64,000 bases of DNA from Sulfuriferula nivalis (lineage in GTDB: Bacteria > Pseudomonadota > Gammaproteobacteria > Burkholderiales > Sulfuriferulaceae). Below, one piece after another: positions 41,257 to 55,980 of the stretch (positions are counted from its first letter, which is position 1; every line of letters begins with the position of its first letter). The stretch is taken from NCBI RefSeq assembly GCF_009937995.1, contig NZ_AP021881.1, forward strand, positions 1,116,001 through 1,180,000, in the 5' to 3' direction. Both the position numbers and the translations under genes were made by a program. The notes below the pieces were generated by a model. The model ran no database searches. It was not told the DNA's origin and saw nothing but the letters and a program-made list of their open reading frames with translations.

Positions 41257-41457
41257 ATGCTATTGGTTGCCATCGTCATTTTTCTGGTTACTTTGGCTTT
41301 GGTGATCAAGCAGCCTGCTGGCTTGGGTATTGGCACGTCGGCATGGCTGGGTGCTGGTGCGGCGCTGCTTGTGGGTGTGGTTACTGTTCAGGATATACCC
41401 GTAGTGTGGGCCATCGTCTGGGATGCGACATTTACGCTTATCTCACACAAGACCTAA
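41257..41457 (+). pseudogene. arsB: Truncated arsB (arsenite efflux pump), first ~60 codons
   Basis: The frame starts like Ars[21 protein letters not shown], then [17 protein letters not shown] and [15 protein letters not shown], all standard for the first two membrane helices. Similarity ends near 41440 and the frame runs into noncoding sequence with a stop (ISHKT). A full ArsB has over 400 residues. The break marks the left side of the quorum-sensing island that follows; no other part of arsB is present in the window. Confidence 0.8.
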
Positions 41458-41480
41458 TTTCTCTAATCGCAAGAACTGCC

Positions 41481-42194
41481 TTATGTCAACAAACCCAGCA
41501 TTGCTGCTCGAATTACTGCTGTAGTTTTGTTAGGTGTATTTAGCTTGGTGATAGTATTGTTAATATGAAAATTGACAGTACGCTCTGAGATATTCAAAAT
41601 GTATGAAATTTCGTTTGAGGTCTTGCCGTCCCCGGTCCATTTCAATACCTCGATTTCTCTAGGTGTTAGTTGTACCAAAGATTCCGGTAACATTTTTGGT
41701 GTAAGTCGCTGTGCCATTGTCATGTGCGCTAATTGAGCAAGCCATGACATTTTGCATCCGTTAACCTGGATCTCATCATCGGAGATTAGTGTATCCGCGC
41801 GAGCTAGCGACAACAATCCCCTTACACCGTTTATATCTCGGCTTGATTGAGCCCAGCCAACCTCTAATCCAAACGACCGAGCCTCTTCCCAAAGTTCATG
41901 AGTAGTAGAAAATAAATCTTCCGACCAAATAAACGGCAATGTTGAATGCATCCCACGCTGCACAGTTGGGTCAGTAGCAATATAGTTATGCTCTTCATAT
42001 TGTTTTTGCCATACGAGCGGATAATTGCTAAACATGGCAACTTTTGGCCGTGTTAATGGGATGGGCATGCGAACACCGTAGGCGCAATGGTCAAATCCAA
42101 GATCACGTGCAAACGAAGTTACCATTTTAAACAATTCGTGCTCACATTTAATGGAAAGTAGAGCGTGAATTTTATCCTCTTGCCAAGTTATCAT
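41481..42194 (-). CDS. luxR: LuxR-type quorum-sensing regulator
   Basis: A 237-residue regulator. The autoinducer-binding domain keeps the usual acyl-homoserine-lactone contacts: W-x3-Y in WQKQYEEHNYIATDP, Asp-Pro in the same block, and a Trp in PFIWSED; the C-terminal LuxR helix-turn-helix has LTPREIEVLKW, GKTSNEISYILNISERTVNFH. It is divergent from rsaM and luxI and ends about 40 bases from the truncated arsB. It most likely binds the lux box upstream of luxI when the signal is present. Confidence 0.93.
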   Translation of the reverse strand: MITWQEDKIHALLSIKCEHELFKMVTSFARDLGFDHCAYGVRMPIPLTRPKVAMFSNYPLVWQKQYEEHNYIATDPTVQRGMHSTLPFIWSEDLFSTTHELWEEARSFGLEVGWAQSSRDINGVRGLLSLARADTLISDDEIQVNGCKMSWLAQLAHMTMAQRLTPKMLPESLVQLTPREIEVLKWTGDGKTSNEISYILNISERTVNFHINNTITKLNTPNKTTAVIRAAMLGLLT

Positions 42195-42342
42195 CTAATG
42201 CCCTCATTCGATAAATGTGTCACACACACTAAGTGAAAAATATACTAAATTACCATATTTTCTAATATTTATGTAGGATTGATTCGTATTTTATATTGGA
42301 TTTAATCTTCCTGTTAGCTTTCGCATTAGCTTGTTATGTTTC

Positions 42343-42358
42343 TGACATGTTACTGTCA
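42343..42358. promoter_or_regulatory. Palindrome upstream of the rsaM-like gene
   Basis: TGACA (42343-42347), six bases, TGTCA (42354-42358): a perfect inverted repeat in the luxR-rsaM intergenic region, six bases before the ATG at 42364. A direct repeat TTAGCTT occurs just before it. It could be an operator for LuxR or RsaM, but it does not match the lux box pattern. Confidence 0.35.
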
Positions 42359-42363
42359 ATTTT

Positions 42364-42822
42364 ATGACATTTAATAATTCAGGTAGCTTCAATCAATCCG
42401 ATAATGAAGTGCAGCTTGGTGATTCTTCCCATATGAACAGGATATCCACAGATAGTTACGTGCGTATGACACACAAATCATTGTTATCACTCTCGTTGGT
42501 GCATTTATTATCTGGGGTTGATCTTGATAGTCTAGATGTGAATGTGCGTGAAGGAGCTAGTTTTACCAATATATCAGGCTATACGGAATGGGTTAGCATC
42601 ACAACGCCACTCATTAGCATAGGATGGGATTGGTGGCTAGATACACAGCAAAACGGATTTGTTTTAAGACGTATTGGCGCACCACGCAGCAATATTATGA
42701 TAGTCGATAGCATGCAGAAAGATTTAGATTACACCAGCGTTTCCATGCTCTTGGAGGACGTTATTGATAACTTTAACTGGAATGGAAGAGTTCTCGCGCA
42801 CATTGCAATTTGTTGTAGTTAG
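42364..42822 (+). CDS. rsaM: RsaM-like (DUF4902) quorum-sensing modulator
   Basis: A 152-residue protein between divergent luxR and luxI. The core STDSYVRMTHKSLLSLSL, SGYTEW, ISIGWDWWLD, RRIGAPRSNIMIVD and LLEDVIDNFNW matches my memory of the RsaM family, which lies between R and I genes in Burkholderia and some Pseudomonas and lowers AHL production. The ATG at 42364 has no clear ribosome site; an ATG at 42433 just before the conserved part is an alternative start. RsaM proteins lack a recognisable DNA-binding motif; their mechanism is not settled. Confidence 0.72.
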   Translation: MTFNNSGSFNQSDNEVQLGDSSHMNRISTDSYVRMTHKSLLSLSLVHLLSGVDLDSLDVNVREGASFTNISGYTEWVSITTPLISIGWDWWLDTQQNGFVLRRIGAPRSNIMIVDSMQKDLDYTSVSMLLEDVIDNFNWNGRVLAHIAICCS

Positions 42823-42829: not shown

Positions 42830-42849
42830 ACCTGTAAGTGTTTACAGTT
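42830..42849. promoter_or_regulatory. lux box upstream of luxI
   Basis: ACCTGTAAGTGTTTACAGTT is a 20-base inverted repeat of the CTG-N10-CAG type, the standard LuxR-binding site. Its centre is about 72 bases before the luxI ATG at 42912, leaving room for a promoter overlapping it at the usual -42 position. It lies eight bases behind the rsaM stop, so luxI has its own autoregulated promoter. Confidence 0.85.
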
Positions 42850-42911
42850 ACTTAAAAATCCAAAAAAACGTCTAATCATATTCCATTACAACATGTTTTG
42901 GAGTGGTGCTA

Positions 42912-43514
42912 ATGCAAGTTATTTCTGGCGTATCGGAAGCGTTTTCAGCTGGAGTGTTTCCTGGTATTTTGCGCTATCGTCACAAAGTTTTCGTTGAACA
43001 GCTTGGCTGGGAGCTGTTTACGGAAAATGGGATGGAGCAAGATCAATTTGATCGTCCAGATACTATGTACGTTGTTGCTCAAGATGAAACGGGAGATATT
43101 TCAGGATGCGCAAGGTTGCTTCCGACCACTCATCCCTATCTATTGGGAGAAGTTTTCCCTCAGCTTCTTAATGGTTTGACACCACCACGTTCCTCTGATG
43201 TTTGGGAATTATCACGATTCGCAGCAGTTGATTTCAACAGTCAAAATTCTTCGGCATTAGGTCAATTTTCATCACCTATTGCTATCCAGTTACTTAAAGA
43301 ATCAATTGCTTGTGCTGCAAAAAGTGGTGCAAAGCGCATCATCACTGTATCACCAATTGGGGTCGAAAGGCTTTTGCGTAAGGCAGGTTTCCAGGCGCAT
43401 CGAGCTGGCCCGCCGATGGTAATTGATGGACATCCCATATTTGCGTGTTGGATTGAGCTAAATCAATCATGTCATGCTCGTCTGAAATTGGGTGAAAACA
43501 GGTTGAATGGATAA
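42912..43514 (+). CDS. luxI: Acyl-homoserine lactone synthase LuxI
   Basis: From the ATG at 42912 this is 200 residues. The conserved LuxI residues are present: Arg in RYRHKVFVEQLGW, the Asp pair in DQFDRPD, Arg in GCARLLPTT and Glu/Arg in WELSRFAAV. It makes an N-acyl-homoserine lactone from S-adenosylmethionine and acyl-ACP; the acyl chain cannot be read from sequence. The upstream lux box indicates positive feedback. Confidence 0.93.
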   Translation: MQVISGVSEAFSAGVFPGILRYRHKVFVEQLGWELFTENGMEQDQFDRPDTMYVVAQDETGDISGCARLLPTTHPYLLGEVFPQLLNGLTPPRSSDVWELSRFAAVDFNSQNSSALGQFSSPIAIQLLKESIACAAKSGAKRIITVSPIGVERLLRKAGFQAHRAGPPMVIDGHPIFACWIELNQSCHARLKLGENRLNG

Positions 43515-43616
43515 ATGGAATGTAAAAAATTGTCATTTTATAACGTAAGAGCTATGGGTCCCATGCAAGAGTATTCCGATGAAAACAGATGCTTATTCCG
43601 ATCTCAAGTAGATAAG

Positions 43617-43664
43617 ATGACAAATATTAAGGAAGATAAGATGACAAATATTAAGGAAGATAAA
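43617..43664 (+). repeat. Tandem duplication of a ribosome site plus start codon
   Basis: Two 24-base copies (43617-43640 and 43641-43664), differing in one base, each contain ATG, ACAAATATT and AAGGAAG and encode MTNIKEDK. Each AAGGAAG is properly placed before the next ATG, so the GMC oxidoreductase gene has three stacked in-frame starts at 43617, 43641 and 43665, the last two with good ribosome sites. Confidence 0.8.
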
Positions 43665-45530
43665 ATGACTGATTCAGGTAAGCGCGCAGACCGTGTCTAT
43701 GACTATATCGTAGTTGGTGCTGGTCCGGGTGGGGGGCCATTGGCGGCGAACCTCGCTAAAGCGGGCTTCACGGTCGCGCTTTTGGAGGCGGGTCTAGATC
43801 CACTGTCGCTGGAAGCTGCCGCCCAGGATCCGAATGCTAAGGCAGCATATGAGGTCCCGGGATTTTTTGGTGCATCTGCGGAAAACCCGCTGTTGAGCTG
43901 GGAGATCTATGTTAGTCACTACGCCAATGTCGAGCAGCAGCGCAAAGACAAGAAGTACGTAGAGGGCAAGGGGGTGCTCTACCCGCGGGGCTCGTGTCTC
44001 GGTGGTTCGGTGTCTCACAATGCCCTTATCTGGGTCTATCCGCATGATGGCGACTTCGACGCCATCGCGCGCACTACCGACGATGTGTCCTGGGCTGCCG
44101 AAAAGATGCGTGGATATTACGAGCGTATCGAGAACTGTCAGTATTGCGGCCCCGCCCAGGAGGGTCACGGCTTCGCCGGCTACATTCCAACGTCCATGAA
44201 CGAAGAGGAGGGGTACGCCGCCGCTATTCCTCAACACACCGACATCGCCACCGCTGGCGTCGAAACGCCGCCCGAGGTTGTGAAAATCAACCCCACTCTG
44301 GACGTGAACCACCCGTCGGTCGCCAAGGGAGCAACCGGCTATTTCCATACACCGATGCACATGCTCAATAAGAAGCGGGTGGGCATTCGAGAATACTTGG
44401 TAGCGGTCCAATCTGCGCATCCGGATAAGCTGGACATCATCACCAACGCGCTCGCGACTCAGGTCATGTTCGAAAAGGAAGGAGGAGCCCTGCGCGCAGT
44501 CGGCATAGAGTACATGCACGGCGGTGGTCAGAGCTACAAGGCTCACAAACTCAGTAAGGATGCGTCGCGTGGCGAGAAAAGGGTTCTATTCGCCCGTCGC
44601 GAAGTTATCCTGTCTGGTGGAGCCTTCAATACGCCGCAGCTGCTCAAGCTGTCTGGCATCGGTCCGAAGGAGGAGCTGCGCCAGCTCGGAATCGACGTGC
44701 GGGTCGATCTCCCTGGCGTCGGCGCAAATCTCCAAGACCGCTACGAGGTGCCAGTGGTGCTCAAGCTGAAAGGCGGCGACACCAATCCGTTGTGGGGTCG
44801 CTGCACGTTCCAGGGCGGCGACCCGGCTATGCAGAGCTACGAGTCGGGGCGCTGGATCGATGACAAGGGCGTCGAACATGCCTTTTCTGGACCATATGCC
44901 GGCAACAACCTTTCGGGAACGAGGATCGCCAAGTCCAGCTACGCAAAGGGCGACCCGGACCTGTTTTTCGTTGGTCTGCCTGTCGCCTTCTACGGTTACT
45001 TCCCGGGCTTTTCCACCCAGCAGGCAACCAATCATTTTAGCTGGAACGTGCTGAAGGCACATACCGAAAATACGGCCGGCACGGTCACTTTGCGCTCCGC
45101 GGATCCGGCCGATGTGCCAGAGATCATCTTCAGGTTCTTCGAAGAGGGCAACGCCGGGGATGCCGACATGAAGGCAACCATAGAAGGCGTGCGTATGATT
45201 CGGCGGGCCATGGCCGAACCGGCGGCTCAGCAGCACATCGAGGAGGAGACTGCACCAGGCAGCAATGTCACGAGTCAGGCCGATCTCGAGGAGTTTGCGC
45301 GCAACACCGCCAGGGGACATCACGCGTCCTGTACGGCCAAGATCGGCGCCGTCGACGACCCAATGGCTGTGTTGGACAGCAGGTTCCGGGTGCGCGGCGT
45401 GAACGGATTGCGTGTCGTTGATGCGTGTGTTTTTCCCAAGACTCCGGGCTTCTTTCCGACCGCGGCGATCATCATGATTAGTGAGAAGGCATCCGATGTG
45501 ATCCTGGAAGATGCGCGCAGGAATGGTTAA
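43665..45530 (+). CDS. GMC-family FAD oxidoreductase
   Basis: A 621-residue flavoenzyme from the ATG at 43665 (longer starts at 43641, 43617 and 43515 are in frame). It has the dinucleotide fold YIVVGAGPGGGPLAANL, the GMC signature region GSCLGGSVSHNALIW, LSGGAFNTPQLLKLSGIG and a C-terminal block with GHHASCTAKIG and VVDACVFPKTPG, in which the usual H-P-x-G-T-C is changed to H-H-A-S-C-T. GMC enzymes oxidise alcohols, often to aldehydes or ketones. Base composition is clearly GC-richer than all neighbours, with long open antisense frames as a side effect, so this gene probably came from another donor. It is the first structural gene behind luxI. Confidence 0.88.
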   Translation: MTDSGKRADRVYDYIVVGAGPGGGPLAANLAKAGFTVALLEAGLDPLSLEAAAQDPNAKAAYEVPGFFGASAENPLLSWEIYVSHYANVEQQRKDKKYVEGKGVLYPRGSCLGGSVSHNALIWVYPHDGDFDAIARTTDDVSWAAEKMRGYYERIENCQYCGPAQEGHGFAGYIPTSMNEEEGYAAAIPQHTDIATAGVETPPEVVKINPTLDVNHPSVAKGATGYFHTPMHMLNKKRVGIREYLVAVQSAHPDKLDIITNALATQVMFEKEGGALRAVGIEYMHGGGQSYKAHKLSKDASRGEKRVLFARREVILSGGAFNTPQLLKLSGIGPKEELRQLGIDVRVDLPGVGANLQDRYEVPVVLKLKGGDTNPLWGRCTFQGGDPAMQSYESGRWIDDKGVEHAFSGPYAGNNLSGTRIAKSSYAKGDPDLFFVGLPVAFYGYFPGFSTQQATNHFSWNVLKAHTENTAGTVTLRSADPADVPEIIFRFFEEGNAGDADMKATIEGVRMIRRAMAEPAAQQHIEEETAPGSNVTSQADLEEFARNTARGHHASCTAKIGAVDDPMAVLDSRFRVRGVNGLRVVDACVFPKTPGFFPTAAIIMISEKASDVILEDARRNG

Positions 45531-45610
45531 TACTGATGGTGCAAACTATCGGCCGTCTCCAAGTGTACGGTCCTATTTTGTATATTTATATTAAATTTTT
45601 AAGGATGATA

Positions 45611-46792
45611 ATGTCAGAAAATGTAACTCTACTCCGAAAAGTATTACGCTTCGGGGATGAAGAAATCGATATCAGCAACAGTGAGCTGGATCAACATCCC
45701 TATCCAGAGCAATATCGGCGGGTCCTGTATGCTTTTGTACGCGATACCGTAAATCAATGTGAATTTTACCGCGACCGTATGGCGCGTGTCGGTATCAAGG
45801 CCGAACAGGTTACAACACAAGAAGTGTTTAATGCCATTCCACCACTCTCCAGTGGTGAAGTGAGTGCCCTGAACGATAGCACTTTATTGACCGACCAGGC
45901 TCGTGAACATCTGAAAACCGGGTTTTATGGCGTCCCGCTGGAGCAAAAATTGTGGCGTAAGTTTACTTCCAGTGGATCAAGCGGCCTGCGCCCCAAGGTC
46001 TCCTACTACACACGGGAAGACTGGGAGGTACTCACCACCACTGCGGCCAGATTGCATTCAAAGTTTCTGCCGTTGAATAAAGTGTCGCGCATGTTCAATT
46101 GTTTCAATGCCGCGCATGTCGGTGCCAAATTTCAGGAAGACAGTTTTTCCTTGCTGGGGATGTCGGTTGAAGGTTCACATTTGACACGCACCACACCAGA
46201 AGCGGTTTTGGATCAAATGGTGACCAGCGGTGCCAGTGAATTCGGCGGTTTTAACGCACTGGCAATCACACCAGGCATGCCAGCAGGTGTAAAAGGTATC
46301 AGCAAGGGAACAAATCTAGATTCCATGTTGAACTTGGATATGGATAATTTCATCGGCAAGAATATTCGCGTCATTATTACCAGTGGTTCCGCACGCGATG
46401 TGGCTGGACTGAATTTGAAAGAACGGGTTTGGGAAGGCAATGAAATGGCTGGCGTGGAAAAGACCAAGTTCTTTGAAATGTATGGTTATTCGGAAAGCTT
46501 GCCAAATGCCATGGATTGCGAATTCAACCAAGGCTTGCATTTGGCGGTTGGCCCGACATTCACCGAAGTGCTGGACGAAAAAACCGGCAAGCACGTTCAG
46601 AATGGGGAACGCGGTCTGGTCGTCATTACGGGGATCAGGCATGGCTCACGCTTTATCCGTTATGCCGTCGGCGATGAGGCAACTTATGTTACCGACACAT
46701 GCCGCTGCGGTAGAGCATCGCCACGTCTGGTTAATATCCAGCGAGTAGAAGACATGGAACGCCTTCAGCAAGGTTGTGCTGGGGGTCTTTAA
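45611..46792 (+). CDS. PaaK-like acyl-adenylating enzyme (phenylacetate-CoA ligase family)
   Basis: A 393-residue protein from the ATG at 45611, preceded by AAGGA. It has the ATP-binding FTSSGSSGLRPK, EMYGYSES, RYAVGDEATY and CRCGR of the PaaK/LuxE-type adenylate-forming family. It is shorter than PaaK (about 430), so the C-terminal domain that helps CoA transfer may be reduced. It would activate a carboxylic acid as acyl-AMP or thioester. The next gene is an aldehyde-dehydrogenase-type enzyme, so together they could reduce an acid to an aldehyde, as LuxE and LuxC do. No luxAB are here. Confidence 0.8.
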   Translation: MSENVTLLRKVLRFGDEEIDISNSELDQHPYPEQYRRVLYAFVRDTVNQCEFYRDRMARVGIKAEQVTTQEVFNAIPPLSSGEVSALNDSTLLTDQAREHLKTGFYGVPLEQKLWRKFTSSGSSGLRPKVSYYTREDWEVLTTTAARLHSKFLPLNKVSRMFNCFNAAHVGAKFQEDSFSLLGMSVEGSHLTRTTPEAVLDQMVTSGASEFGGFNALAITPGMPAGVKGISKGTNLDSMLNLDMDNFIGKNIRVIITSGSARDVAGLNLKERVWEGNEMAGVEKTKFFEMYGYSESLPNAMDCEFNQGLHLAVGPTFTEVLDEKTGKHVQNGERGLVVITGIRHGSRFIRYAVGDEATYVTDTCRCGRASPRLVNIQRVEDMERLQQGCAGGL

Positions 46793-46838
46793 TTGCAAGT
46801 CCCTATGGATTTTCGATTCACTGAATTTGGAGGACAAT

Positions 46839-48194
46839 ATGAGTGAAGTAGTAATGCTGCAAAACATTATTCGCGGCCAACTGCTCGAGCCGACCGAACG
46901 AAAAATCGTTGGACGTTTCAGTTTTCCTGTAACAACGGCGCAGGATGTCGCATCAGCGATGAAATTTGCCCGTTTTCAGCAAGCTGAGCCACTTGACAAG
47001 GTACTGCGTGTTTTGTCAAAAATTGGCCGGGATGCAAGCTGGATCGGTGATGAAGATCTGAAGGTACAAGCTGAACTAAGTGGCAGCCCGATCAAACATA
47101 TGCGCAATTCGATCCAGGCGGTCAATCACTGGCTGGCCAATATTGAAGAGTATGTCAAGCGCAATGGCACACTGAAAGAAATCGGCGACGCTGATCAGCG
47201 CAAAACAGTTTTGCTGGATCGCAATGGCATGCTGTGTCAGGGCGGCCTGACCACCATGTTTATTTTGGCGGGGGATGAAATCTCGATTGCGCCTTGGAAT
47301 ATCGCACAGGCATTGCTGGCGGGTACCAAAGCCGTTGTCAAACCCAGTCGGATTGAACCATTGAGCGCCTTTCTGTTTACCAAGGCACTGATTGCTGAAG
47401 GCGTGCAACCGCCTGCCTTGCTGTATATCAGCCGTGATTCGGATGAAGAGCAATGTTTTGTTGGAACGCTGATCAAACAAACCCAGCAGTCGGTGATGTA
47501 TGGTGAAGACAATACGGTTAATACCATTTGCCAGCCGTTCGGTTTCCGTGCCGAACACAAGTACCTGGCTTACCTGACTGGCCGCTCTGGTGCGGTGGTC
47601 TATCCTGATGCCGACGTCAACCTTGCAGCCGAAATGATCATTCGCGGCGCATGTGATGACCGTGGCAATCGCTGCAACTCGACCAAAAAAGTATTCGTGG
47701 CGCGCCAGTTGGCAAAGGATATGGAACTGGCCATGGTTCGCGAAGCCGATAAATTGGTGCGTGGCGAACCCACCGATGAAGCAACCGATATCGGCAGGAA
47801 TGATCCTCAAGCTAGGGTGTTTGCCCAGCAGTGGGCCAGTTCTGCGCAGGTATTTTATGACAAGGATATGTTCTTGATGTCGGTGCCGCAAACAGCACCA
47901 GTGCTCAAAGAAGAACTACCCTACCCAAGCGTTGCTGTCTGTTATTACGATGAAGGGCAGGATCCTGTTGAACTCATGAATAACAGTGTCAGCAATACCT
48001 ATCTTGGGGCGGCGGTTGCCGTATCGGTGTTTACTCGCAGCCTAGATCAGTTCAACCTAGCGTCTTCCCGCATGCATTGCTGCAAAACCCTGTTGAATTT
48101 GCCCTCTACCGCCTATGATTTCTGGACTGCACACCAACGCTGGCACCTGTTCACAGAACTGATGCGAAAAGTCGAAATAGTGGTCGCAACTTAA
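46839..48194 (+). CDS. Aldehyde dehydrogenase-superfamily (acyl-reductase-like) enzyme
   Basis: A 451-residue protein from the ATG at 46839, behind a GGAGG site. The NAD(P)-binding segment APWNIAQALLAGTKAVVKPS and the catalytic Cys in GNRCNSTKK are typical of the aldehyde dehydrogenase superfamily. The glutamate-containing block typical of hydrolytic ALDHs is not obvious, which fits CoA- or thioester-linked reductases (LuxC-type). It follows the acyl-adenylating enzyme by 46 bases. Confidence 0.8.
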   Translation: MSEVVMLQNIIRGQLLEPTERKIVGRFSFPVTTAQDVASAMKFARFQQAEPLDKVLRVLSKIGRDASWIGDEDLKVQAELSGSPIKHMRNSIQAVNHWLANIEEYVKRNGTLKEIGDADQRKTVLLDRNGMLCQGGLTTMFILAGDEISIAPWNIAQALLAGTKAVVKPSRIEPLSAFLFTKALIAEGVQPPALLYISRDSDEEQCFVGTLIKQTQQSVMYGEDNTVNTICQPFGFRAEHKYLAYLTGRSGAVVYPDADVNLAAEMIIRGACDDRGNRCNSTKKVFVARQLAKDMELAMVREADKLVRGEPTDEATDIGRNDPQARVFAQQWASSAQVFYDKDMFLMSVPQTAPVLKEELPYPSVAVCYYDEGQDPVELMNNSVSNTYLGAAVAVSVFTRSLDQFNLASSRMHCCKTLLNLPSTAYDFWTAHQRWHLFTELMRKVEIVVAT

Positions 48195-48260: not shown

Positions 48261-48551
48261 ATGACAGCATTAATCGTAATTGAATTAACAGTAAAAAATG
48301 GTGACAAACTGAAAGAATATTCGGCACAAACCCCTGCAATCTTGAAAAAATTTAATGGGGAATTATTAATTAAAGGCAAGACTTCACAATTACATGATAG
48401 CGCAAACCTGTCTCCAGCCTATGACACCATGGTGGTATTCCAGTTTCCTTCAAAAGAAGATGCATCAGCTTGGTATAACTCTCCGGAATATCAGGAATTG
48501 TTAGGTCTGAGAGATGAAGCAATGAGCAGCACCTTTAAATTGCTTGCTTAA
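48261..48551 (+). CDS. DUF1330-like ferredoxin-fold protein
   Basis: A 96-residue protein with the dimeric alpha/beta-barrel outline: LIVIELTVKNGDKLKEYSAQ, GELLIKG, DTMVVFQFPSKEDASAWYNS and PEYQEL. Small proteins of this fold are common helpers or enzymes (cyclases, isomerases, monooxygenases) in biosynthetic clusters. Ribosome site GGAG. The IS701-type element begins seven bases behind its stop. Confidence 0.8.
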   Translation: MTALIVIELTVKNGDKLKEYSAQTPAILKKFNGELLIKGKTSQLHDSANLSPAYDTMVVFQFPSKEDASAWYNSPEYQELLGLRDEAMSSTFKLLA

Positions 48552-48557
48552 TTTCTC

Positions 48558-49662
48558 ACTGATGTTACGCAGCTGCGCATCTGATAGTCTCGCCGGATGA
48601 AAAAAGTCGACCTTGATTTATACACCGACTATTTGCTGAGCGCCTTTGGTGCGGCGACTGCGACTGGGCTGTCCGCCATGGTTGACGGCGACGTGAGTCA
48701 TGACAAGATCACGCGATTTTTGTCGGAGCAAGACTACACGACCAAGGACTTGTGGCAGCAGGTCAAATCGACCGTGAGAATGGTTGAGCGCGATGATGGG
48801 GGGGTGATTTTTGACGACACGATTCAAGAAAAAGCCTGGACGGATGAAAGCGAGTTGATGTGCTGGCACTTTGACCATTGCAGCGGACGCAACATCAGGG
48901 GGATCAACCTGCTCAATGCGCTATATCACAGTAACGGGACATCGATTCCGGTGGCATTTGAATTGGTGAAAAAGCCGTTTCAATACTGTGACCAGAAGAC
49001 CCAGCAAATCAAACGTAAAGGTGAGGTGACGAAAAACGAGATGATGCGCCAAATGATAGACACCTGTATTCGCAACACCTTGAAATTTCGCTTCGTGCTG
49101 ATGGTCAGTTGGTTTTCTTCAGATGAGAACTTAGATTTCATTGGGGGCAAGGGTCGGCATTTCATTGCCGCACTCAAGGACAACCGGCTGGTGGCATTAA
49201 CCGAAGAAGACAGGAAAAAGAAGCGTTTCGTCCGAGTAGATGAGCTTGATTTTCCGGAGCAAACAGCAGTGCAAGGCTGGCTCAAGGGTTATGCGAAAGC
49301 AGTCCTTTTAGTTCGCGAGGTCTTTACAAACAAAGATGGCAGCACTGGGGTATTGCATCTGGTTTGCAGTGACTTGACTTGCGACTATGACGCCATCACC
49401 ACGACCTACAAAAAACGGTGGAAAGTGGAGGTGTTTCACAAATCCTTGAAGTCCAACGCCAACTTGGCAATGTCTCCTACCCGAACGGTGAGAACCCAAA
49501 GCAACCACATCTTCATGTCTATTTGCGCCGCCTTCAAGCTCGAATGCCTGAGTATTAAAAGCAAGCCCAATCCCTTTGCACTTTGTCGCAAGCTATTCAT
49601 CAACGCATCACGTACCGCCTATGACGAACTTCAGCAATTTCGCGCGGTTGCTTAACATCAGT
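48558..49662 (+). mobile_element. IS701-family-like insertion sequence
   Basis: Inverted repeats ACTGATGTTACGCAGC (48558-48573) and GTTGCTTAACATCAGT (49647-49662; two mismatches) enclose a single transposase gene. No clear target duplication is visible (flanks TTCTC and TAAAA). It splits the island gene set between the DUF1330 gene and the aldolase gene; the latter starts 30 bases behind it. Confidence 0.8.
48597..49655 (+). CDS. Transposase, IS701-family-like (DDE)
   Basis: A 352-residue DDE transposase: TATGLSAMVDGDVSHDKITR at the N-terminus, first Asp in VIFDDTIQEKAW, second Asp in a LMVSWF region, and KRRWKVEVFHKSLKSN carrying the Glu of the catalytic triad. Complete in length, with terminal inverted repeats on both sides, so possibly still active. 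Confidence 0.85.
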   Translation: MKKVDLDLYTDYLLSAFGAATATGLSAMVDGDVSHDKITRFLSEQDYTTKDLWQQVKSTVRMVERDDGGVIFDDTIQEKAWTDESELMCWHFDHCSGRNIRGINLLNALYHSNGTSIPVAFELVKKPFQYCDQKTQQIKRKGEVTKNEMMRQMIDTCIRNTLKFRFVLMVSWFSSDENLDFIGGKGRHFIAALKDNRLVALTEEDRKKKRFVRVDELDFPEQTAVQGWLKGYAKAVLLVREVFTNKDGSTGVLHLVCSDLTCDYDAITTTYKKRWKVEVFHKSLKSNANLAMSPTRTVRTQSNHIFMSICAAFKLECLSIKSKPNPFALCRKLFINASRTAYDELQQFRAVA

Positions 49663-49692
49663 TAAAAATAAAGAATTTTAAATGAGACTACC

Positions 49693-50610
49693 ATGAAAAA
49701 TATTGGCGATTTGAAATTAATTGACGTAACTTTACGCGATGGTGGATATAGAAATAATTTTGGTTTTTGCATGGATTATATCCTGGAGCATGCGCGCCTG
49801 ATTCAATCATCCGGCGTTGAGTATATTGAGATTGCTTATCGTAATGGCTCTATCGTTCATTATGAAAACATGGGGGTGACTGCATATGGTAGCAATGAAT
49901 ACATTAAAACCCTGAAGCACGAACTGCCAGACATGAATTTGGTGGTTATTGCTCATGCCGCTAATATCACGGATGCCGATATCTATGAAATGGCGGAACA
50001 CGGTGTTGCGATGTTACGTTTTTGCACGAGCACAAAGAATGTGCAAGAAACCTTGCGCCTAGCACGTCTGGCCAAGCAATGCGGTATGCAGACCAGTATC
50101 AATATTGTCCGAATCAGTTCGATCGACATGCCAACACTGGCTAGCTTGGTCTCGGCTGTAAACAATTATCGCGACGTAATTGATGTCATTTATTTTGCTG
50201 ATTCCAACGGCAACCTAACCCCGGAATCGGTACGTAATATTTCCGAAGAAATTCTGCGTGGCACATCGATTGAACTCGGTTTCCATGCACACGATAACAT
50301 CGGCCTGGCGATGTCCAACTCGATTGCAGCCGTTGTGCAGGGCGCGTCCTTTATCGATGCCAGCTTGCTGGGCATGGGCAAAGGGATTGGTAATCTGAAA
50401 CTGGAAAAATTGGTTGCTTATTTGATTATGAATGGCAGCGACAAGTATTCGATCGTTCCACTTTTGCAGATGGCAAGCAAGCTGCGCTCTTATTCCGGCT
50501 TTTCGGAAGATCTGGACGAATATGGTGTTGACATCCTGTGCGGCTTGTTTAATTTCCCGTTCACTGAGCGCAGCAAGGCTGAAGTAATTCTGAAGTACAG
50601 TGCAGACTAA
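49693..50610 (+). CDS. DRE-TIM metallolyase-family aldolase/acyltransferase
   Basis: A 305-residue TIM barrel with DVTLRDGGYRNNF (Arg15, Asp16), metal His at 198 and 200 in GFHAHDNIG and SLLGMGKGIGN, as in 4-hydroxy-2-oxovalerate aldolase and isopropylmalate/citramalate synthases. No regulatory C-terminal domain of isopropylmalate synthase is present. It would either cleave or form a C-C bond next to a 2-oxo acid. An IPMDH-like fusion two genes later supports 2-oxo-acid chemistry (inference). The upstream IS lies 30 bases away, and the ribosome site is weak, so transcription may now start in the IS or beyond it. Confidence 0.82.
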   Translation: MKNIGDLKLIDVTLRDGGYRNNFGFCMDYILEHARLIQSSGVEYIEIAYRNGSIVHYENMGVTAYGSNEYIKTLKHELPDMNLVVIAHAANITDADIYEMAEHGVAMLRFCTSTKNVQETLRLARLAKQCGMQTSINIVRISSIDMPTLASLVSAVNNYRDVIDVIYFADSNGNLTPESVRNISEEILRGTSIELGFHAHDNIGLAMSNSIAAVVQGASFIDASLLGMGKGIGNLKLEKLVAYLIMNGSDKYSIVPLLQMASKLRSYSGFSEDLDEYGVDILCGLFNFPFTERSKAEVILKYSAD

Positions 50611-50812: not shown

Positions 50813-50824
50813 GTGGCTGAAATT

Positions 50825-51631
50825 ATGAATTTACTGAAACACACTGAAATCGGAGACGGGATGAGGGAGTGTTGCTATGAGTATGGTAATGCCGACTGGA
50901 GCGGTCATATTCTTATATTGGGGGCGGTGAGTCCGGTCTGGCATGGGGGAGATTTTTGTCAATTTTTGCTGGATTTTTTTCTTCAAGAAAAGCAACGAGT
51001 CTTCGTGCTCGATACGATTCCATTTATCGAGCATGGCAATGGTGCCGATCAGGGCGAAGCCAGTATCCGGAAATTGGCGCGCTTTATTCGTGATAATTTG
51101 CCAAAAATTGACCTGATTAGCGGGTATGCTCTGGGTGGCACGATGGCACTCAAACTGGCGAACCACCTGCCAGCGATCCCAAAAATCCTGTGCTTGTCCG
51201 GCCCTGGCTTCATTGATGCAGCACTGCGCGGCAAGTTGCAAGCATTGATTGATCTGCTGGCCGAAGGCGACCTAGAAGGCTGTCTGACCCGCTTGTCAGC
51301 ATTTGTTGCGGCTGAAGGAAAGATACCCGGCCTCCAGCATCGGGATCGTATTGCACAGAACGACGTCGAACCGGGTTGTCGCAGAATGCTCAAGGGTTTC
51401 AGGTTTTTGTTGACGCTGGATGCACGGCAAAATCTGGCAACTTATCAGGGTGAAATTTTGTGCCTGCTGGGCCAACATTCACAACTGGCGACCACTGCCA
51501 ACCTGGCAATAGCAGCTTCAAGCAAACACCATAAGCTGGTGCAGGTTCCTGATGCAGGCATGCGTATCTTGCTCGACAATAGAGAATTTACGGTATCTAT
51601 AATTAATGACTGGTTAAAAAATGGCGAATAA
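50825..51631 (+). CDS. Alpha/beta-hydrolase-fold protein without nucleophilic Ser
   Basis: A 268-residue protein from the ATG at 50825, eight bases behind GGGTGG. The fold is suggested by HILILGAVSPVWHGGDF near the start and LISGYALGGTMALKLA, the nucleophile elbow, in which the residue at the Ser position is Ala102 (G-Y-A-L-G-G). A hydrolytic role is therefore unlikely; a lyase, dehydratase-like or scaffold role is possible. It overlaps the next gene by 11 bases. Confidence 0.68.
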   Translation: MNLLKHTEIGDGMRECCYEYGNADWSGHILILGAVSPVWHGGDFCQFLLDFFLQEKQRVFVLDTIPFIEHGNGADQGEASIRKLARFIRDNLPKIDLISGYALGGTMALKLANHLPAIPKILCLSGPGFIDAALRGKLQALIDLLAEGDLEGCLTRLSAFVAAEGKIPGLQHRDRIAQNDVEPGCRRMLKGFRFLLTLDARQNLATYQGEILCLLGQHSQLATTANLAIAASSKHHKLVQVPDAGMRILLDNREFTVSIINDWLKNGE

Positions 51632-53765
51632 AAAAGTGTTGGTGCTGCCGGGTGACGGCATTGGACAAGAAGTCTGTGATGCTGCGATTCCAGTTCTGGA
51701 TCTACTCAAGCTGCCGATCGACTTGATTTACGGTGATATCGGTTGGGAATGCTGGATCAAAGAAGGCAATCCGGTGCCTCAGGACACCTGGGACAAAATC
51801 GAACAGGTGGATGCAGTGTTACTTGGCGCAATCACCAGTAAGGCTAAAAAACAGGCTGAGCAGGAATTGCCACAAGCGTTGCAAGGCAAGAATCACAAAT
51901 ATGTTTCGCCAGTCATCCAATTGCGTCAGCGCCTGGGTTTGTATGCGAATGTGCGCCCATCGATGTACATCGCTGGCAATGGCAAGCCCTACCGCATGAG
52001 TGTGATTCGGGAAAATACGGAAGGTTTATATGCAGGTTTTGACTATCGTGGCGTGCCGGAACCATTCCGCCCCCTGATCAAACACCCGAATCTCGACAAA
52101 TATGGCTATGATGCCGCATCCTGCACTTTACGGCTGCAAACCAAATTGGGTTTGCAGCGTCTGTTTGAATTTGCCTTCGAGCATGCGCTCAAACAAGGCT
52201 TTGACAAAGTAACCTTTGCAGACAAGCCGAATGTGATGCGTGAAAGCGGTGATTTTGGACAGGAAATCTTTTTTGACATCGCGGCGCATTATCCTGCTAT
52301 CGAAGCGGATATTCAGAACGTGGATGCTGTGGCGCTCTGGTTGGTCACACGCCCGGAAAAATTTGGCGTGATCGTGGCTGAAAACATGTTTGGCGACATC
52401 CTTTCCGATCTGGCTGGCGGGGTAATGGGTGGTTTGGGCCTGGCGCCCAGTGCGAATTATGGCGAACGCGTGGCGTACTTTGAGCCAGTGCATGGTAGTG
52501 CGCCCGGCATGGCTGGCAAGAAAAAAGCCAATCCCATCGCAATGTTCCTGAGTATTGCCATGATGCTGGATTATCTGGGCTTTTCTGAAGCCGCCACAAG
52601 GATCCAAACTGCGGTTCGGGAAGCGGTCAGAAAGTCTCCGAACCTGACTTATGATTTTGGCGGCAGTGCCAGTACAGCTTCCTTCGCCAGCCAGGTCATC
52701 GCGCTCATCAAAGGCCAGCAACTGAAAAAAACGGCGGCAATTCTAACGATCGGCGACGAGTTGGTGAGTGGCGAATACCAAAATACCAATATCACTGAAA
52801 TTAGCATTCACCTCAATGGTCTGGGCTACAAGGTGAAAGAACATGCGGTTTGTACCGATCAAAGTCACCTGATTTCCCGTGCACTGTCGCGCTTTCTCGG
52901 TGAATATGATTTGGTCGTGGTCAGCGGTGGACTGGGGCCGACCTCCGATGATGTCACCCGCTTTGCGGTAGCCGCCGCAACCAATACGGCGCTGGAATTC
53001 CGCGACGAATGCTGGGATCATATCGTCAACCGGATGCAGTCATACAATCTGCAAGTGCGTGAACAAGACAAGGTGCAAGCCTATATTCCGGTCGGCGCCA
53101 CCGTGTTGAAAAACACCTGTGGTCTGGCCAGTGGTTTCATGCTGGAAAAAGATGGAACCACGCTTGTGGTACTGCCAGGTCCGCCGGCCGAAATGCGCGC
53201 AATGTTACTCAACACCTTCGATATGGAACCGATGACCGCTGGCCAGGTTCAGAAATTTGAATGGAAAACCATCGGAACGATGGAAACCGAGGCGCATGTT
53301 TTTGTCAGCACACTGGCGGCCAGTTTTGCCGAAAAAATCAAGTATTTGTGGCGCTATCCCCATCTGAATATTTCGGTGGAAGTGGAAGGTGACGATCAGT
53401 CCGATATGCAGTGCATCAAGGCGTTGGATGAGTTCTTGCGCAAAGCGACGGTCAGCAAAGACGGTCGTTCGGCAATCGAGTTGCTCGGCGCTGAACCCAA
53501 CGTCAGTTGGCAGAGTAATGATGCGGAACTGGATAAATTGCTCTCCAGCTTGCCGTCAAGGCTGGGCGCGCCGCCATATATGCTTGAAACCGTACCAAAA
53601 TTTTCACAAATCGGCGCGCAACTGCCTTATTCCGGCAGTCTTGAAATTACTTGTACTAGCCCCCTAGGGCAGAAATTTAAAATTGCAATCCCGCTGCGCG
53701 ATGCCAATGTGCGTGACTACGTGAAAGAATTTTCTGCCTGGAGTTTCTTGCGCAGCGAAATGTAA
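51621..53765 (+). CDS. Fusion of isopropylmalate/isocitrate-dehydrogenase-like and CinA/MoCF domains
   Basis: A 714-residue protein. Residues 1-365 are a beta-decarboxylating dehydrogenase: VLPGDGIGQEV, RENTEGLYAG, DKPNVMRESGDF with the active-site Lys, FGDILSDLAGGVMGGLGLAP and FEPVHGSAPGMAGK. From about 370 follows a MoCF/CinA-type domain (ILTIGDELVSGEYQNTN; VSGGLGPTSDDVTR; LPGPPAEM) and an unrecognised C-terminal part (about 640-714). There is no stop or frameshift between the parts. The first domain would oxidise and decarboxylate a hydroxy acid; CinA domains can hydrolyse nucleotide derivatives. The fusion is unusual and points to a dedicated pathway enzyme. Confidence 0.85.
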   Translation: MANKKVLVLPGDGIGQEVCDAAIPVLDLLKLPIDLIYGDIGWECWIKEGNPVPQDTWDKIEQVDAVLLGAITSKAKKQAEQELPQALQGKNHKYVSPVIQLRQRLGLYANVRPSMYIAGNGKPYRMSVIRENTEGLYAGFDYRGVPEPFRPLIKHPNLDKYGYDAASCTLRLQTKLGLQRLFEFAFEHALKQGFDKVTFADKPNVMRESGDFGQEIFFDIAAHYPAIEADIQNVDAVALWLVTRPEKFGVIVAENMFGDILSDLAGGVMGGLGLAPSANYGERVAYFEPVHGSAPGMAGKKKANPIAMFLSIAMMLDYLGFSEAATRIQTAVREAVRKSPNLTYDFGGSASTASFASQVIALIKGQQLKKTAAILTIGDELVSGEYQNTNITEISIHLNGLGYKVKEHAVCTDQSHLISRALSRFLGEYDLVVVSGGLGPTSDDVTRFAVAAATNTALEFRDECWDHIVNRMQSYNLQVREQDKVQAYIPVGATVLKNTCGLASGFMLEKDGTTLVVLPGPPAEMRAMLLNTFDMEPMTAGQVQKFEWKTIGTMETEAHVFVSTLAASFAEKIKYLWRYPHLNISVEVEGDDQSDMQCIKALDEFLRKATVSKDGRSAIELLGAEPNVSWQSNDAELDKLLSSLPSRLGAPPYMLETVPKFSQIGAQLPYSGSLEITCTSPLGQKFKIAIPLRDANVRDYVKEFSAWSFLRSEM

Positions 53766-53874
53766 ATCTCCCGGCTGGCACCGCACCACAGGCACAGACA
53801 AGTTTTATTTGGGGCGGCGCGATGGCCTGTCAAGCGCCAGCGTTACCCGTCACAATTTTTGAAGGATTTTTGAA

Positions 53875-54549
53875 ATGGATGCAATCGAAATGCAATGGAA
53901 AGAACGGCTGTTACAACTGGATACCGCAGCAATTTCCGATGCGATGGACAGTTTTAACATCAATCGAGCCCTGTTTGGAATTTTGCCACGGGTGGAAGGT
54001 GCCAAAATCGCAGGCCCAGCCTTTACTGTCCAATACGAAGCACTCTCGAGTGTACCATCGGGTTTTCAAAATGCCGCCAATTATATTGACGAAGTTCCGC
54101 CGCATGCGGTGGTGGTGGTCAATAATGATGGCAATACCTCATGCACCAATTGGGGCGACATCCTGACGCGCAAGGCACTGCGGCAAGGTATTGCCGGTAC
54201 CATTATCAACGGCTCTGCACGCGATATTGAAACCATCCGCAAACTGGGCTATCCCTTGTACAGCAAGGGCATCTATATGGTCTCAGGAAAAAACCGGGTG
54301 CGCTTGAAAGCCAGCAATGTCGCAATCGAAATCGCTGGCGTGGTTGTCAATCCGGGTGACTGGATTTTTGCCGATGACAATGGCGTCGTGGTGATTGCGC
54401 CGGAAAATCTGCATGCGGTAATCGAACGCGCTGAAAATGTCAACCATACCGAGATCGAAATCGTGCGTGCCATTGAATCGGGCGAATCGCTGGTCACTGC
54501 GCGCCAAAATTTTGGCTATTCGACGCCATGGGAAATAAGAAATGTCTAG
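53875..54549 (+). CDS. RraA/HMG-aldolase-like protein
   Basis: A 224-residue protein of the RraA-like fold: DTAAISDAMDSF, PRVEGAKIAGPAFTVQ, NWGDILTRKALRQG, INGSARDIETIRKLGYPLY and IFADDNGVVVIAPE. The Arg-Asp pair (SARDIE) matches the metal and substrate residues of 4-hydroxy-4-methyl-2-oxoglutarate aldolases, which cleave 2-oxo-acid aldols or decarboxylate oxaloacetate. True RraA, an RNase E inhibitor, is an alternative but unlikely here. It follows the fusion gene by 109 bases, a gap with no gene, and overlaps the next gene by 8. Confidence 0.82.
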   Translation: MDAIEMQWKERLLQLDTAAISDAMDSFNINRALFGILPRVEGAKIAGPAFTVQYEALSSVPSGFQNAANYIDEVPPHAVVVVNNDGNTSCTNWGDILTRKALRQGIAGTIINGSARDIETIRKLGYPLYSKGIYMVSGKNRVRLKASNVAIEIAGVVVNPGDWIFADDNGVVVIAPENLHAVIERAENVNHTEIEIVRAIESGESLVTARQNFGYSTPWEIRNV

Positions 54550-55423
54550 TGATTTTATTTCTTACTGGCAGGAGCGTTTGGTCTTTCTTGATGTGCATTA
54601 TCATGCCAGCCCGGACGCCTATAAAAGAAAATTCAATGCAATTGAGGCTGGCACAGCGTATCAGGCGATCCGTGGCGGAGTCTTGCTCAAGAGCCATCTT
54701 GGTTGCACCAGTGCAGTAGCGGCTACGGCACAAAGCATGGGCCTGCCGGTATTTGGTTCTGTAGCACTAAACAGTATCGCTGGCGGGCTGGATCTACGTA
54801 GCATCAAGCAATCCTTGTGCTATTACAATGGCAATGCGCATTGCGGGCGGCTGGTAGTCGATTTGCCGACCGTCGTTGCAAGCCAGCATCTCAGCAAGCT
54901 GCAACGCGCTTATGCCAATGATGCGGTCAAGCGCTTTGCACAAGAACCGTGTTTTCTGGGCGACGATCAACAAGTACTTTTTCCATGCATTGAAGAAGTG
55001 CTCGATTTTTGTAATCACGAAAGCGTGGTCTTGACAACCGGCCATGCTACTCGCGCCCAACTTGAAGCCCTGGTGAATCTGTGCGTTAAAAAAGGTGGCG
55101 TGCGCCTGTTGTTGAATCAGCCCGCCAATCCCATGACCAAGATGGATGCAACTGCTTTGAAGAGTCTTGGACAGTATGACTGGTTGTATGTGGAGCAGAC
55201 CGCGCTGACCTTGTTGCTGGGTTATCAGACACAGCAAGACTTTGACGAAGTATTGGCCAATGTCCACAATGTGGTGTATAGCTCGGATCTGGGGCAGCTT
55301 GATCAATTGTCCCCGCAACAATGGCTCAATCAGTCACAAACATGGTTCGACAGCGCCAAGCTGTCAGCTGCGCGCGTGCAAGCCATTACCTTACTGAATC
55401 CATTGCAAATGCTCACGCCGTAA
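54542..55423 (+). CDS. DUF6282-like amidohydrolase-fold protein
   Basis: A 293-residue protein with LDVHYHASPDAYKRK near the start (Asp17, His19, His21, Asp25), a metal-binding pattern of the amidohydrolase/PHP type seen in DUF6282 proteins, and VVLTTGHATRAQLEALV plus LLNQPAN further on. The family has no established function that I know. It ends the island gene set and is coupled to the RraA-like gene. Confidence 0.65.
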   Translation: MSSDFISYWQERLVFLDVHYHASPDAYKRKFNAIEAGTAYQAIRGGVLLKSHLGCTSAVAATAQSMGLPVFGSVALNSIAGGLDLRSIKQSLCYYNGNAHCGRLVVDLPTVVASQHLSKLQRAYANDAVKRFAQEPCFLGDDQQVLFPCIEEVLDFCNHESVVLTTGHATRAQLEALVNLCVKKGGVRLLLNQPANPMTKMDATALKSLGQYDWLYVEQTALTLLLGYQTQQDFDEVLANVHNVVYSSDLGQLDQLSPQQWLNQSQTWFDSAKLSAARVQAITLLNPLQMLTP

Positions 55424-55771
55424 ATGTAGGGAGCTGGGATTGCCGCACCGAAAAGTTAGCGGAAAGCCTAAGCTGGCCGAGCTCCGAATGCCTTGTCATG
55501 GCGTTGTTGAATAAATCGATTATTCGGCAAATTAACCGCCGATAAGGCATCATTCGGCAAGGGGTAGTCTCAGAATTCGGAATTTATCGTACGCTAACGT
55601 TTTTTTGCACTTGAAATTCAATGGCTTATGCGTGCCAAACTTTCATTGCGGGCCAATCACTTTACGTGAAATAAATTACTTAAAAATCAACGCTATGAAC
55701 ATTTTTACCATACGATTTTTCCGTTTTCTGAAGCGATCCCAGCAAGAATTCATGTTGAGAGAAATCCATGC
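55424..55771. other. Noncoding junction region with repeat copy B
   Basis: About 350 bases without a convincing gene. It holds the second copy of the 54-base repeat (55571-55624) and two copies of ATTCGGCAA (about 55523 and 55552). It leads into a transposase remnant, so the region is probably the worn end of an IS at the island border. Confidence 0.55.
55571..55624. repeat. 54-bp imperfect repeat, copy B
   Basis: Direct repeat of 50759-50812 with nine mismatches and no gap. This copy lies about 150 bases before the IS5-type transposase remnant, which favours an origin as IS end sequence. Confidence 0.7.
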
Positions 55772-55980
55772 CGCAAGTATAACGAAAGTCGTCGCCACCT
55801 TATCAAGAAAAATCACTATAAAGTGACAAATTGGCACGACTATAACAACGCATTAGGGGATCGAGGTGATTTCACGTTCTATTTTACCGATGAGGCGATA
55901 GCCGAATGGCGTCCAGCGAAGACGGGGGACGCGGTCGCCCACAAGAATATTCCGACGTTGCGATAGAAACCGGCGTATGC
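55772..55980 (+). pseudogene. IS5-family transposase N-terminal remnant
   Basis: Read from 55772 the frame gives RKYNESRRHLIKKNHY, KVTNWHDYNNAL, DRGDFTFYFTDEAIAEW and RPAKTG, the usual N-terminus of IS5-type transposases. One base shift after KTG continues the family pattern as GRGRPQEYSDVAIET, and the next expected residues run into the PEBP gene. No start codon in frame and no catalytic domain remain. It is a broken IS at the right border of the island. Confidence 0.75.

Follow-up and report, generated by a model that had tools for sequence, protein, structure and literature searches.

A five-enzyme gene cassette recurring across bacteria, found downstream of a luxI-type quorum-sensing module in Sulfuriferula nivalis

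The right half of a gene island in Sulfuriferula nivalis consists of five enzyme genes that recur as a set in other bacteria. The island lies within a 64,000-nucleotide stretch of contig NZ_AP021881.1 (here called the window). In our best explanation, which we hold with somewhat better than even confidence, these genes form an undescribed, horizontally transferred cassette for a small carboxylic-acid-type metabolite that is probably exported, with an AHL module upstream. Quorum sensing is the local part of this finding, not the conserved part. The compact set is conserved in proteobacteria as well as in one myxobacterium and one actinobacterium, and neither a product nor a paper was found for it in the open-licence PMC literature.

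Table 1. Features of the island and its borders in window coordinates
Feature	Position	Strand	Assignment
N-terminal ArsB fragment, left border	41257..41457	+	PF02040 4.6e-10, profile 2-59 of 423
luxR-type regulator	41481..42194	-	Autoind_bind 3e-39, GerE 1.6e-20 (Pfam)
rsaM-like gene, DUF4902	42364..42822	+	PF16245 2.9e-29
lux box ACCTGTAAGTGTTTACAGTT	42830..42849	+	1 mismatch to ACCTGTAN6TACAGGT
luxI-type AHL synthase	42903..43514	+	PF00765 8.6e-29
GMC oxidoreductase	43515..45530	+	PF05199, PF00732
PaaK-like acid-activating ligase	45536..46792	+	NCBIfam AMP-dependent CoA ligase 3.9e-20, below model cut-off
ALDH/LuxC-type reductase	46776..48194	+	PF00171 1.4e-23, PF05893 1.5e-4
DUF1330 small protein	48261..48551	+	PF07045 1.2e-19
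Insertion sequence (IS)	48558..49662	+	DDE_5 transposase 48597-49655; ends by eye from inverted repeats
Core 1, DRE-TIM (HMGL-like) aldolase	49693..50610	+	PF00682 1.8e-29
Core 2, alpha/beta-fold protein	50813..51631	+	AlphaFold pLDDT 91.4, Foldseek alpha/beta hydrolases 1e-11
Core 3, Iso_dh + COG1058 (MoCF) fusion	51621..53765	+	PF00180 4.6e-81, PF00994 2.2e-28
Core 4, RraA-type aldolase/decarboxylase	53875..54549	+	PF03737 1.3e-38
Core 5, DUF6282	54542..55423	+	PF19799 2.3e-39
5'-truncated PEBP gene, right border	55982..56371	+	PF01161

Recurrence of the cassette and its accessory genes

We collected 67 loci, the window apart, using DUF6282 patterns that were drawn from two sequences, so that the collection represents a near clade. 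Open reading frames were called from the first start and are not gene models. All five core genes are present in 63 of the 67 loci; a simpler ORF-BLAST count gave 48, which rose to 63 once fused and fragmented genes were counted. The aldolase, dehydrogenase, RraA and DUF6282 genes, whose co-occurrence an earlier note on this DNA had put forward as a check, are linked in 65 loci. That all five come together so often rules out chance linkage. The complete loci keep to one strand throughout, show either of two gene orders (44 and 19 loci) and have a median span of 5.3 kb, and their carriers are found among Enterobacterales, Bartonella, Pseudomonas, Burkholderia, Halomonas and Legionella, along with one myxobacterium and one actinobacterium. 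Among the incomplete loci, two have no match to the alpha/beta protein (L041, L043), one with its match near a contig end has only the alpha/beta and DUF6282 genes of the five (L060), and one has DUF6282 only (L076). Fragmented core genes occur in L034, L074 and L083 as well as in several loci from Bartonella.

Several neighbours are also joined into single reading frames: Iso_dh with COG1058 in 16 loci and the window, Iso_dh with RraA in 13 Legionella-type loci, and RraA with DUF6282 in a 520-aa fusion (L029). We count these fusions in favour of one functional cassette. For 64 sequences, the distance matrices of the core genes correlate with one another at r of 0.87-0.93, a value inflated by shared ancestry, and 0 of 500 permutations reached values as high. 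This correlated divergence, the linkage and the retained metal and substrate residues described below argue for such a cassette. A census found it to be rare and scattered (2 of 399 genomes of the order and 2 of 398 of the phylum, the S. nivalis genome included); in G326, one of the two further genomes, a short contig holds COG1058, RraA, DUF6282 and an MFS gene. Annotation shows no cassette around four distant DUF6282 genes of about 25% identity that we inspected.

Accessory genes mostly track the core tree (one FastTree run, midpoint-rooted) and differ mostly by clade. The window clade has three members, the others being from Paraliomyxa and Pseudosulfitobacter, with reductase genes in common. 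Besides the window, the PaaK gene is present in 1 of the 67 loci and the ALDH gene in 2, which argues against acid activation and reduction, proposed earlier, as a general trait of the pathway. An ATP-grasp ligase is present in 22 of the 67 loci. An MFS pump query from Cedecea gave strong matches in 17 loci and weak matches in 3, and a Halomonas pump query, its own locus apart, gave 10 matches, all of 26% identity. When three MFS proteins were scored, two passed the Bcr/CflA cut-off for efflux pumps (243 and 252 versus 200.9 bits), and the third has no Bcr/CflA match at that cut-off. No exporter was recognised in many of the loci or in the window, which counts against the reading of an exported product. 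The luciferase-like monooxygenase of Pseudomonas/Halomonas-type loci scores best with SfnG and then RutA, and their flavin reductase with RutF, all below cut-offs.

The quorum-sensing module and its link to the cassette

As the earlier note had described, a divergent luxR, an rsaM-like gene and luxI with a lux box are all present, the autoinducer synthase and the AHL-binding/GerE regulator scoring above their Pfam cut-offs; the rsaM-like gene is the one with the DUF4902 domain. The lux box has a perfect core and lies 5' of luxI, at its promoter. A scan of the window allowing 3 mismatches to the lux box consensus gave 2 matches versus 1.6 expected, so the strength of the box lies in its one-mismatch fit at the luxI promoter. 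Genome-wide, the core CTGTAN6TACAG is found at this single place; since a reversed control pattern is found 3 times per strand, rarity alone is no proof, and the position carries the weight. The window has the lux box and the three genes of luxR-rsaM-luxI quorum-sensing modules, but differs from them in that its downstream genes form an enzyme cassette without an assigned role. The box could drive luxI, GMC, PaaK, ALDH and DUF1330, and perhaps also the core beyond the IS. Placement of the cassette behind a lux box may offer an AHL switch for inducing the pathway and discovering its molecule.

The IS, which the earlier note overlooked in a gene list that was otherwise largely right, splits the gene run between DUF1330 and the aldolase. 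It has inverted repeat arms at 48547-48578 and 49642-49673 and a single copy in the genome. Because it parts the luxI-proximal genes from the core, AHL regulation of the entire set is only a possibility.

A competing explanation, to which we give a little less than an even chance, is that a mobile luxR-rsaM-luxI came to lie beside the cassette, with AHL controlling luxI, perhaps GMC, PaaK, ALDH and DUF1330, and nothing more. Besides the IS, it draws on the absence of both luxI and rsaM beside the cassette in all 67 loci (0/67 each; luxR queries gave weak matches, of 43 and 53 bits, in two) and on a close luxI that is present, without any DUF6282 match, in 3 of 17 genomes of the same genus. The conserved tie of the gene set to luxI that the earlier note expected is thus not borne out; of its signal-linked small-molecule pathway, the conserved multi-enzyme set and a plausible small molecule stand. 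A terminator-like stem between PaaK and ALDH (46761-46786) also fits an incidental link, but such sites show no excess over chance (13 observed versus 15.9 expected on both strands). Also against it, the luxI end and the GMC frame abut (43514/43515), and a second luxR-rsaM-luxI on contig C2, whose luxI is 79% identical to that of the window, likewise flanks a run of enzyme genes, albeit one that points the opposite way. The GMC gene is 90.0% identical to that of Paraliomyxa over 1836 bp of nucleotide sequence. The PaaK-like protein matches no Pfam family at E 0.001; its PDB matches are PaaK-like ligases (7e-8 to 2e-7).

Core enzymes and a proposed pathway

On every functional NCBIfam model shown, the aldolase, the dehydrogenase and RraA stay under the curated cut-off, a point against the pathway proposed below. 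In the aldolase, D16, H198, H200 and N234 are invariant. Among solved structures, its nearest relatives are a putative aldolase and 4-hydroxy-2-oxovalerate aldolases, with homocitrate synthases next. In the Iso_dh domain, R102, R112, R130, Y137, K202 and D235 are conserved in 64 of 64 sequences and D259 and D263 in 63 of 63; we take these to be the Arg triad, Tyr, Lys and Asp residues of beta-decarboxylating dehydrogenases. The fusion named earlier as IPMDH-CinA is real, but its dehydrogenase is nearest, rather than to LeuB, to homoisocitrate dehydrogenase in the PDB and to LEU3_arch/AksF (AksF2) in NCBIfam, below their cut-offs. Likewise, its CinA part is a COG1058 pyrophosphatase domain without the C-terminal CinA deamidase domain (Pfam). 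The window domain has the catalytic E/D/D at +0/+33/+64 and a GG motif, and a strict pattern finds triad and motif in 16 of 21 sequences.

The RraA protein retains an Arg-Asp pair (R116 in 64 of 64 sequences, D117 in 63 of 64), in which R116 probably corresponds to the catalytic Arg-123 of an RraA-family aldolase described in the available passages of PMC5065237. The DUF6282 model (pLDDT 93.9) has one Foldseek match at E<=0.001, a weak one to dihydroorotase (3.9e-4); D17, H19, H21, H52, H168, E218 and D249 are conserved in 29 of 29 sequences. The protein is thus predicted to be an amidohydrolase-type metal-binding barrel with a DxHxH motif, these residues being its putative ligands. The nucleophile position of the alpha/beta protein is Ala in 41 and Ser in 21 of 62 readable sequences; the window protein lacks the serine, which the earlier note had missed, and no His is conserved above 75% in the same set. 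A classical Ser-His-Asp hydrolase was rejected on these grounds.

In the pathway that we propose from these assignments, the PaaK-like ligase and the ALDH/LuxC-like enzyme of the window clade would activate and then reduce a carboxylic acid, and the GMC enzyme would oxidise an alcohol. The DRE-TIM aldolase would use a 2-oxo acid or acyl-CoA to form a C-C bond, the Iso_dh domain would catalyse NAD(P)-dependent oxidative decarboxylation of a 2-hydroxy-3-carboxy acid, and RraA would make or cleave an oxo-acid aldol. The DUF6282 step may be a hydrolysis, a hydration or a ring closure, the alpha/beta protein may work without a catalytic serine as a binding protein or cofactor-free lyase/isomerase, and the COG1058 domain may cleave the pyrophosphate of an NAD-like compound.

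The main rival to this biosynthetic reading, which we consider rather unlikely, is a catabolic cassette by which an oxo-dicarboxylate or a heterocycle is broken down into units of the pyruvate type. RraA-family HMG/CHA aldolase acts in the final stage of protocatechuate 4,5-cleavage, and the retained aldolase Arg-Asp, the likeness of the DRE-TIM aldolase to 4-hydroxy-2-oxovalerate aldolases, and the monooxygenase and flavin reductase scores would all suit degradation, as would the catabolic setting of 2 of the 4 distant DUF6282 genes, which adjoin TRAP uptake genes. However, the efflux-type MFS proteins, the ATP-grasp ligases and the ligase and reductase genes and luxI of the window argue against it.

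It is very doubtful that the cassette has decayed and no longer works in the window: the single IS within the gene run and the broken genes that, as noted earlier, form both borders (a PEBP relative in genome G017 extends further at its N-terminus than the window copy) would suit decay, but all five core frames are open with their conserved residues retained, and Ala is the commoner family state of the alpha/beta protein rather than local damage.

A long shot is that the metabolite reacts with NAD or is built on it, with the dehydrogenase forming a pyridine-nucleotide adduct that the fused COG1058 domain cuts at its pyrophosphate. The cut would release a nucleotide-like product or protect the cell, and the serine-less alpha/beta protein would bind the intermediate. 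A parallel exists in mycobacteria, where drug-NAD adducts are cut by the CinA pyrophosphatase domain, and a weak hint comes from the exporters, whose scores below cut-off include the nucleoside pumps PunC and NepI as well as other pumps. If true, the cassette would represent a natural-product pathway of a new class, spread over several phyla.

Comparison with known systems

To our knowledge, the enzyme sets of furanomycin, belactosin/cystargolide, pantaphos, altemicidin, leudiazen/mangotoxin and tundrenone differ from the cassette. No PKS, NRPS or terpene core synthase is found among the Pfam matches of the island genes, as the earlier note had stated, and with no PKS/NRPS core common cluster finders have no handle on the cassette. 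The open-licence PMC literature yielded no paper on the cassette or DUF6282, and none for the P. syringae locus tags that we take to surround PDB 3k4i. The text of PMC5126622, on Legionella metabolites, contains no mention of aldolase, RraA, isopropylmalate or ATP-grasp, and the available part of PMC4022178 concerns an unrelated subject.

The cassette shares with leucine, lysine and AksF-type homologation a DRE-TIM enzyme beside a beta-decarboxylating dehydrogenase, as well as the nearest relatives of that dehydrogenase. It differs in that its aldolase is closer to 4-hydroxy-2-oxovalerate aldolases, in that it adds RraA, DUF6282 and the serine-less alpha/beta protein, and in that no aconitase-type isomerase was matched in the 67 loci or the window when the genome's own two aconitase-family proteins were used as tblastn queries (E 1e-3). 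In its classical form, the 2-oxo-acid homologation proposed earlier is weakened by this lack of a linked isomerase, an activity that a housekeeping enzyme could nevertheless supply; plain leucine-type homologation was dropped for the same reason.

The protocatechuate 4,5-cleavage endgame (LigJ/LigK) presumably resembles the cassette in pairing an RraA-family aldolase with an amidohydrolase-fold protein, the likeness of DUF6282 to LigJ being one of predicted fold. The cassette differs in its beta-decarboxylating dehydrogenase and in the efflux or ligase genes that accompany it in other loci.

Notable elements of the cassette include the amidohydrolase-like DUF6282 protein, the mostly serine-less alpha/beta protein and the Iso_dh-COG1058 fusion. 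The COG1058 domain has the Glu/Asp/Asp triad of CinA/COG1058 pyrophosphatases at the published spacing, but whereas the fusions named in the available passages of PMC3680494 are with PncC or FAD synthase only, its partner here is an Iso_dh dehydrogenase.

Recurrence and lineages of the five-gene core

An alignment of two DUF6282 sequences, used solely as bait, was run against a single genome from each species, and the 66 loci so obtained, together with that of Legionella adelaidensis, gave a set of 67. Searching these by tblastn, we found the DRE-TIM aldolase at 65 loci, the alpha/beta-fold protein at 64, the dehydrogenase at 65 and RraA at 65, and the complete five-gene set at 63. The earlier note had proposed looking in other genomes for the aldolase, dehydrogenase fusion, RraA and DUF6282 genes together next to luxI; their linkage to one another was confirmed, but luxI lies beside the cassette at none of the 67 loci. 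The five genes share one strand at all 63 complete loci and follow the window's order at 44, while at 19 the alpha/beta gene is shifted to adjoin DUF6282. Iso_dh-COG1058 is a single ORF at 16 loci and in the window, Iso_dh is fused to RraA (596-613 aa) at 13 Legionella-type loci, and RraA is fused to DUF6282 at one locus (L029). Pairwise distances of the core genes correlate with r of 0.87-0.93.

The cassette is rare. Counting the window's own genome, 2 of 399 genomes from the order carry it, as do 2 of 398 from the phylum. In a sample of 100 relatives that also counts this genome, none of the others has a close DUF6282 and three show weak matches. No cassette is annotated around four distant plasmid-borne DUF6282 genes, two of which adjoin TRAP uptake genes.

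In a phylogeny of the concatenated core genes (64 sequences), the nitronate monooxygenase type of Pseudomonas, Burkholderia, Halomonas and Prauserella forms one clade (20 loci, support 0.99), as do the ATP-grasp (Legionella) type (22 loci plus two without ATP-grasp, support 0.61) and the ligase/reductase type of the window, Paraliomyxa and Pseudosulfitobacter (support 1.0). The 17 loci with an efflux pump and COG1058 are not one clade, because P. kilonensis groups with the Pseudomonas type. Since the types mostly form single clades, accessory genes mostly track the core lineage.

A luciferase-like monooxygenase is present at 20 of the 67 loci (L044, L045, L047-L054, L058, L060-L063, L071, L083, L084, L092, L093); ABM and nitronate monooxygenase genes each occur at 21, namely these 20 and L087, and a flavin reductase at 14 loci of this cassette type. 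Top scores, all below cut-offs, were SfnG and then RutA for the L061 monooxygenase and RutF for the L044 flavin reductase. The Photorhabdus cassette is followed downstream by an ORF of 2944 codons.

Conserved residues and proposed chemistry

The aldolase retains D16, H198, H200 and N234 in alignment. The dehydrogenase, whose nearest relative is homoisocitrate dehydrogenase (1.4e-60), retains its three arginines and its Tyr, Lys and Asp residues. In the window, the Glu/Asp/Asp triad of its COG1058 domain is intact at +0/+33/+64, a spacing the same as that of the published family (PMC3680494), for which the named fusions are PncC and FAD synthase. In M. tuberculosis, this domain cuts adducts of drugs with NAD (PMC9033802). 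By strict pattern the triad is retained in 16 of 21 sequences; L035 and L036 miss it through the residue beside Glu and possess the GGLGPTxDD motif, L039 is cut short, and Glu is absent from L041 and L043.

RraA retains Arg116-Asp117, and Arg116 may correspond to Arg-123, a residue of importance to the HMG/CHA aldolase of P. putida (PMC5065237). Among solved structures, the closest to the window's RraA is an uncharacterised protein, PDB 3k4i (1e-55). This structure, presumably from P. syringae, may already show a member of the cassette.

The DUF6282 model is confident (pLDDT 93.9) and weakly resembles dihydroorotases and other amidohydrolases (Foldseek best E 3.9e-4, the sole match at E <= 0.001); DxHxH, H52, H168, E218 and D249 are invariant in 29 of 29 sequences. 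The alpha/beta protein has a clear predicted alpha/beta-hydrolase fold (pLDDT 91.4; Foldseek 1e-11). Of 62 sequences readable at its nucleophile position, 41 have Ala and 21 have Ser; those with Ser all belong to the Legionella-type clade, which also includes two with Ala. As this position is mostly Ala and no His is conserved above 75% in the alignment, most members are unlikely to be classical hydrolases.

We think that the five core genes make a small carboxylic-acid-type product. The core would form a C-C bond and carry out an oxidative decarboxylation, a second aldol-type reaction and a reaction on an amidohydrolase fold; the window's clade would add ligase/reductase and GMC steps, and in other clades efflux or ATP-grasp partners would join. 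We infer every one of these reactions; what the data show is which genes are present, how they are linked, their predicted folds and which residues are conserved. The main rival to a biosynthetic role is catabolism. A search of open-licence PMC papers found no description of this gene set; 17 clusters are reported for the Paraliomyxa genome (PMC9960870).

Quorum-sensing genes and island composition

Profile matches (Pfam/NCBIfam) supported the island gene calls made earlier, and the broken genes described at both borders proved to be an ArsB remnant of 66 residues and a PEBP gene that has lost its 5' end. luxR and rsaM-luxI are divergently oriented, and luxI is followed by GMC, PaaK-like, ALDH/LuxC-like and DUF1330 genes. 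The lux box core, CTGTAN6TACAG, is found at a single place in the whole 3.44-Mb genome; because a control, the reversed pattern, turns up three times on each strand, the case for the box is its position, not its rarity. Beyond the insertion sequence that comes after DUF1330, the order is aldolase, alpha/beta protein, Iso_dh-COG1058, RraA and DUF6282. The proposed quorum link is anatomically good as far as DUF1330 and perhaps extends past the insertion sequence to the core genes; it is not conserved. A close luxI is found in 3 of 17 same-genus genomes, with different neighbour genes and no DUF6282 match in those three.

Features and their coordinates
Feature	Sequence	Coordinates	Remarks
lux box	window	42830-42849	53 bases 5' of luxI start
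GMC gene	window	43680-45515 (1836 bp aligned)	
GMC counterpart	L028 (Paraliomyxa locus)	11041-12876 (1836 bp aligned)	
Transposase	window	48597-49655	after DUF1330 gene; inverted repeats; one copy in genome
Alike stretch	window	50611-50812	
Alike stretch	window	55550-55680	
Second luxR-rsaM-luxI and adjoining run	L094 (G000:C2:1-20000)	5876-19184	
2944-codon ORF	L036 (Photorhabdus locus)	11864-20698	

The GMC genes of the window and of the myxobacterium Paraliomyxa share 90.0% DNA identity over 1836 bp, versus 45-69% identity for the five core proteins; the Paraliomyxa locus is 67% G+C. The window's GMC gene has the highest G+C among the island genes measured (56.8%, GC3 66%), and at E <= 1e-100 it was found in 1 of 100 sampled relatives, its own genome. 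Since the Paraliomyxa counterpart sits at the opposite cassette end, GMC was probably gained separately from the core and recently, and its sequence identity probably reflects a recent long-distance transfer.

By eye, two alike stretches flank the alpha/beta-to-DUF6282 genes, both following, with differences, the pattern TCGTACG-TAACGTTT-TTTG-ACTTGAAAT-CAATGG; a repeat finder set to 30 nt missed them. They are perhaps the ends of a lost mobile element.

A second luxR-rsaM-luxI is carried on another contig of the same genome (C2, 45 kb, with a parA-like gene at its start), beside ten genes that run together on the minus strand: AstE/AspA-like, two ATP-grasp ligases with LAL domains, PhzF-like, MFS, a xylose-isomerase-like barrel, argininosuccinate-lyase-like, a PLP enzyme, GHMP kinase-like and haem-oxygenase-like. 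The run has the look of an amino-acid or dipeptide pathway linked to quorum sensing.
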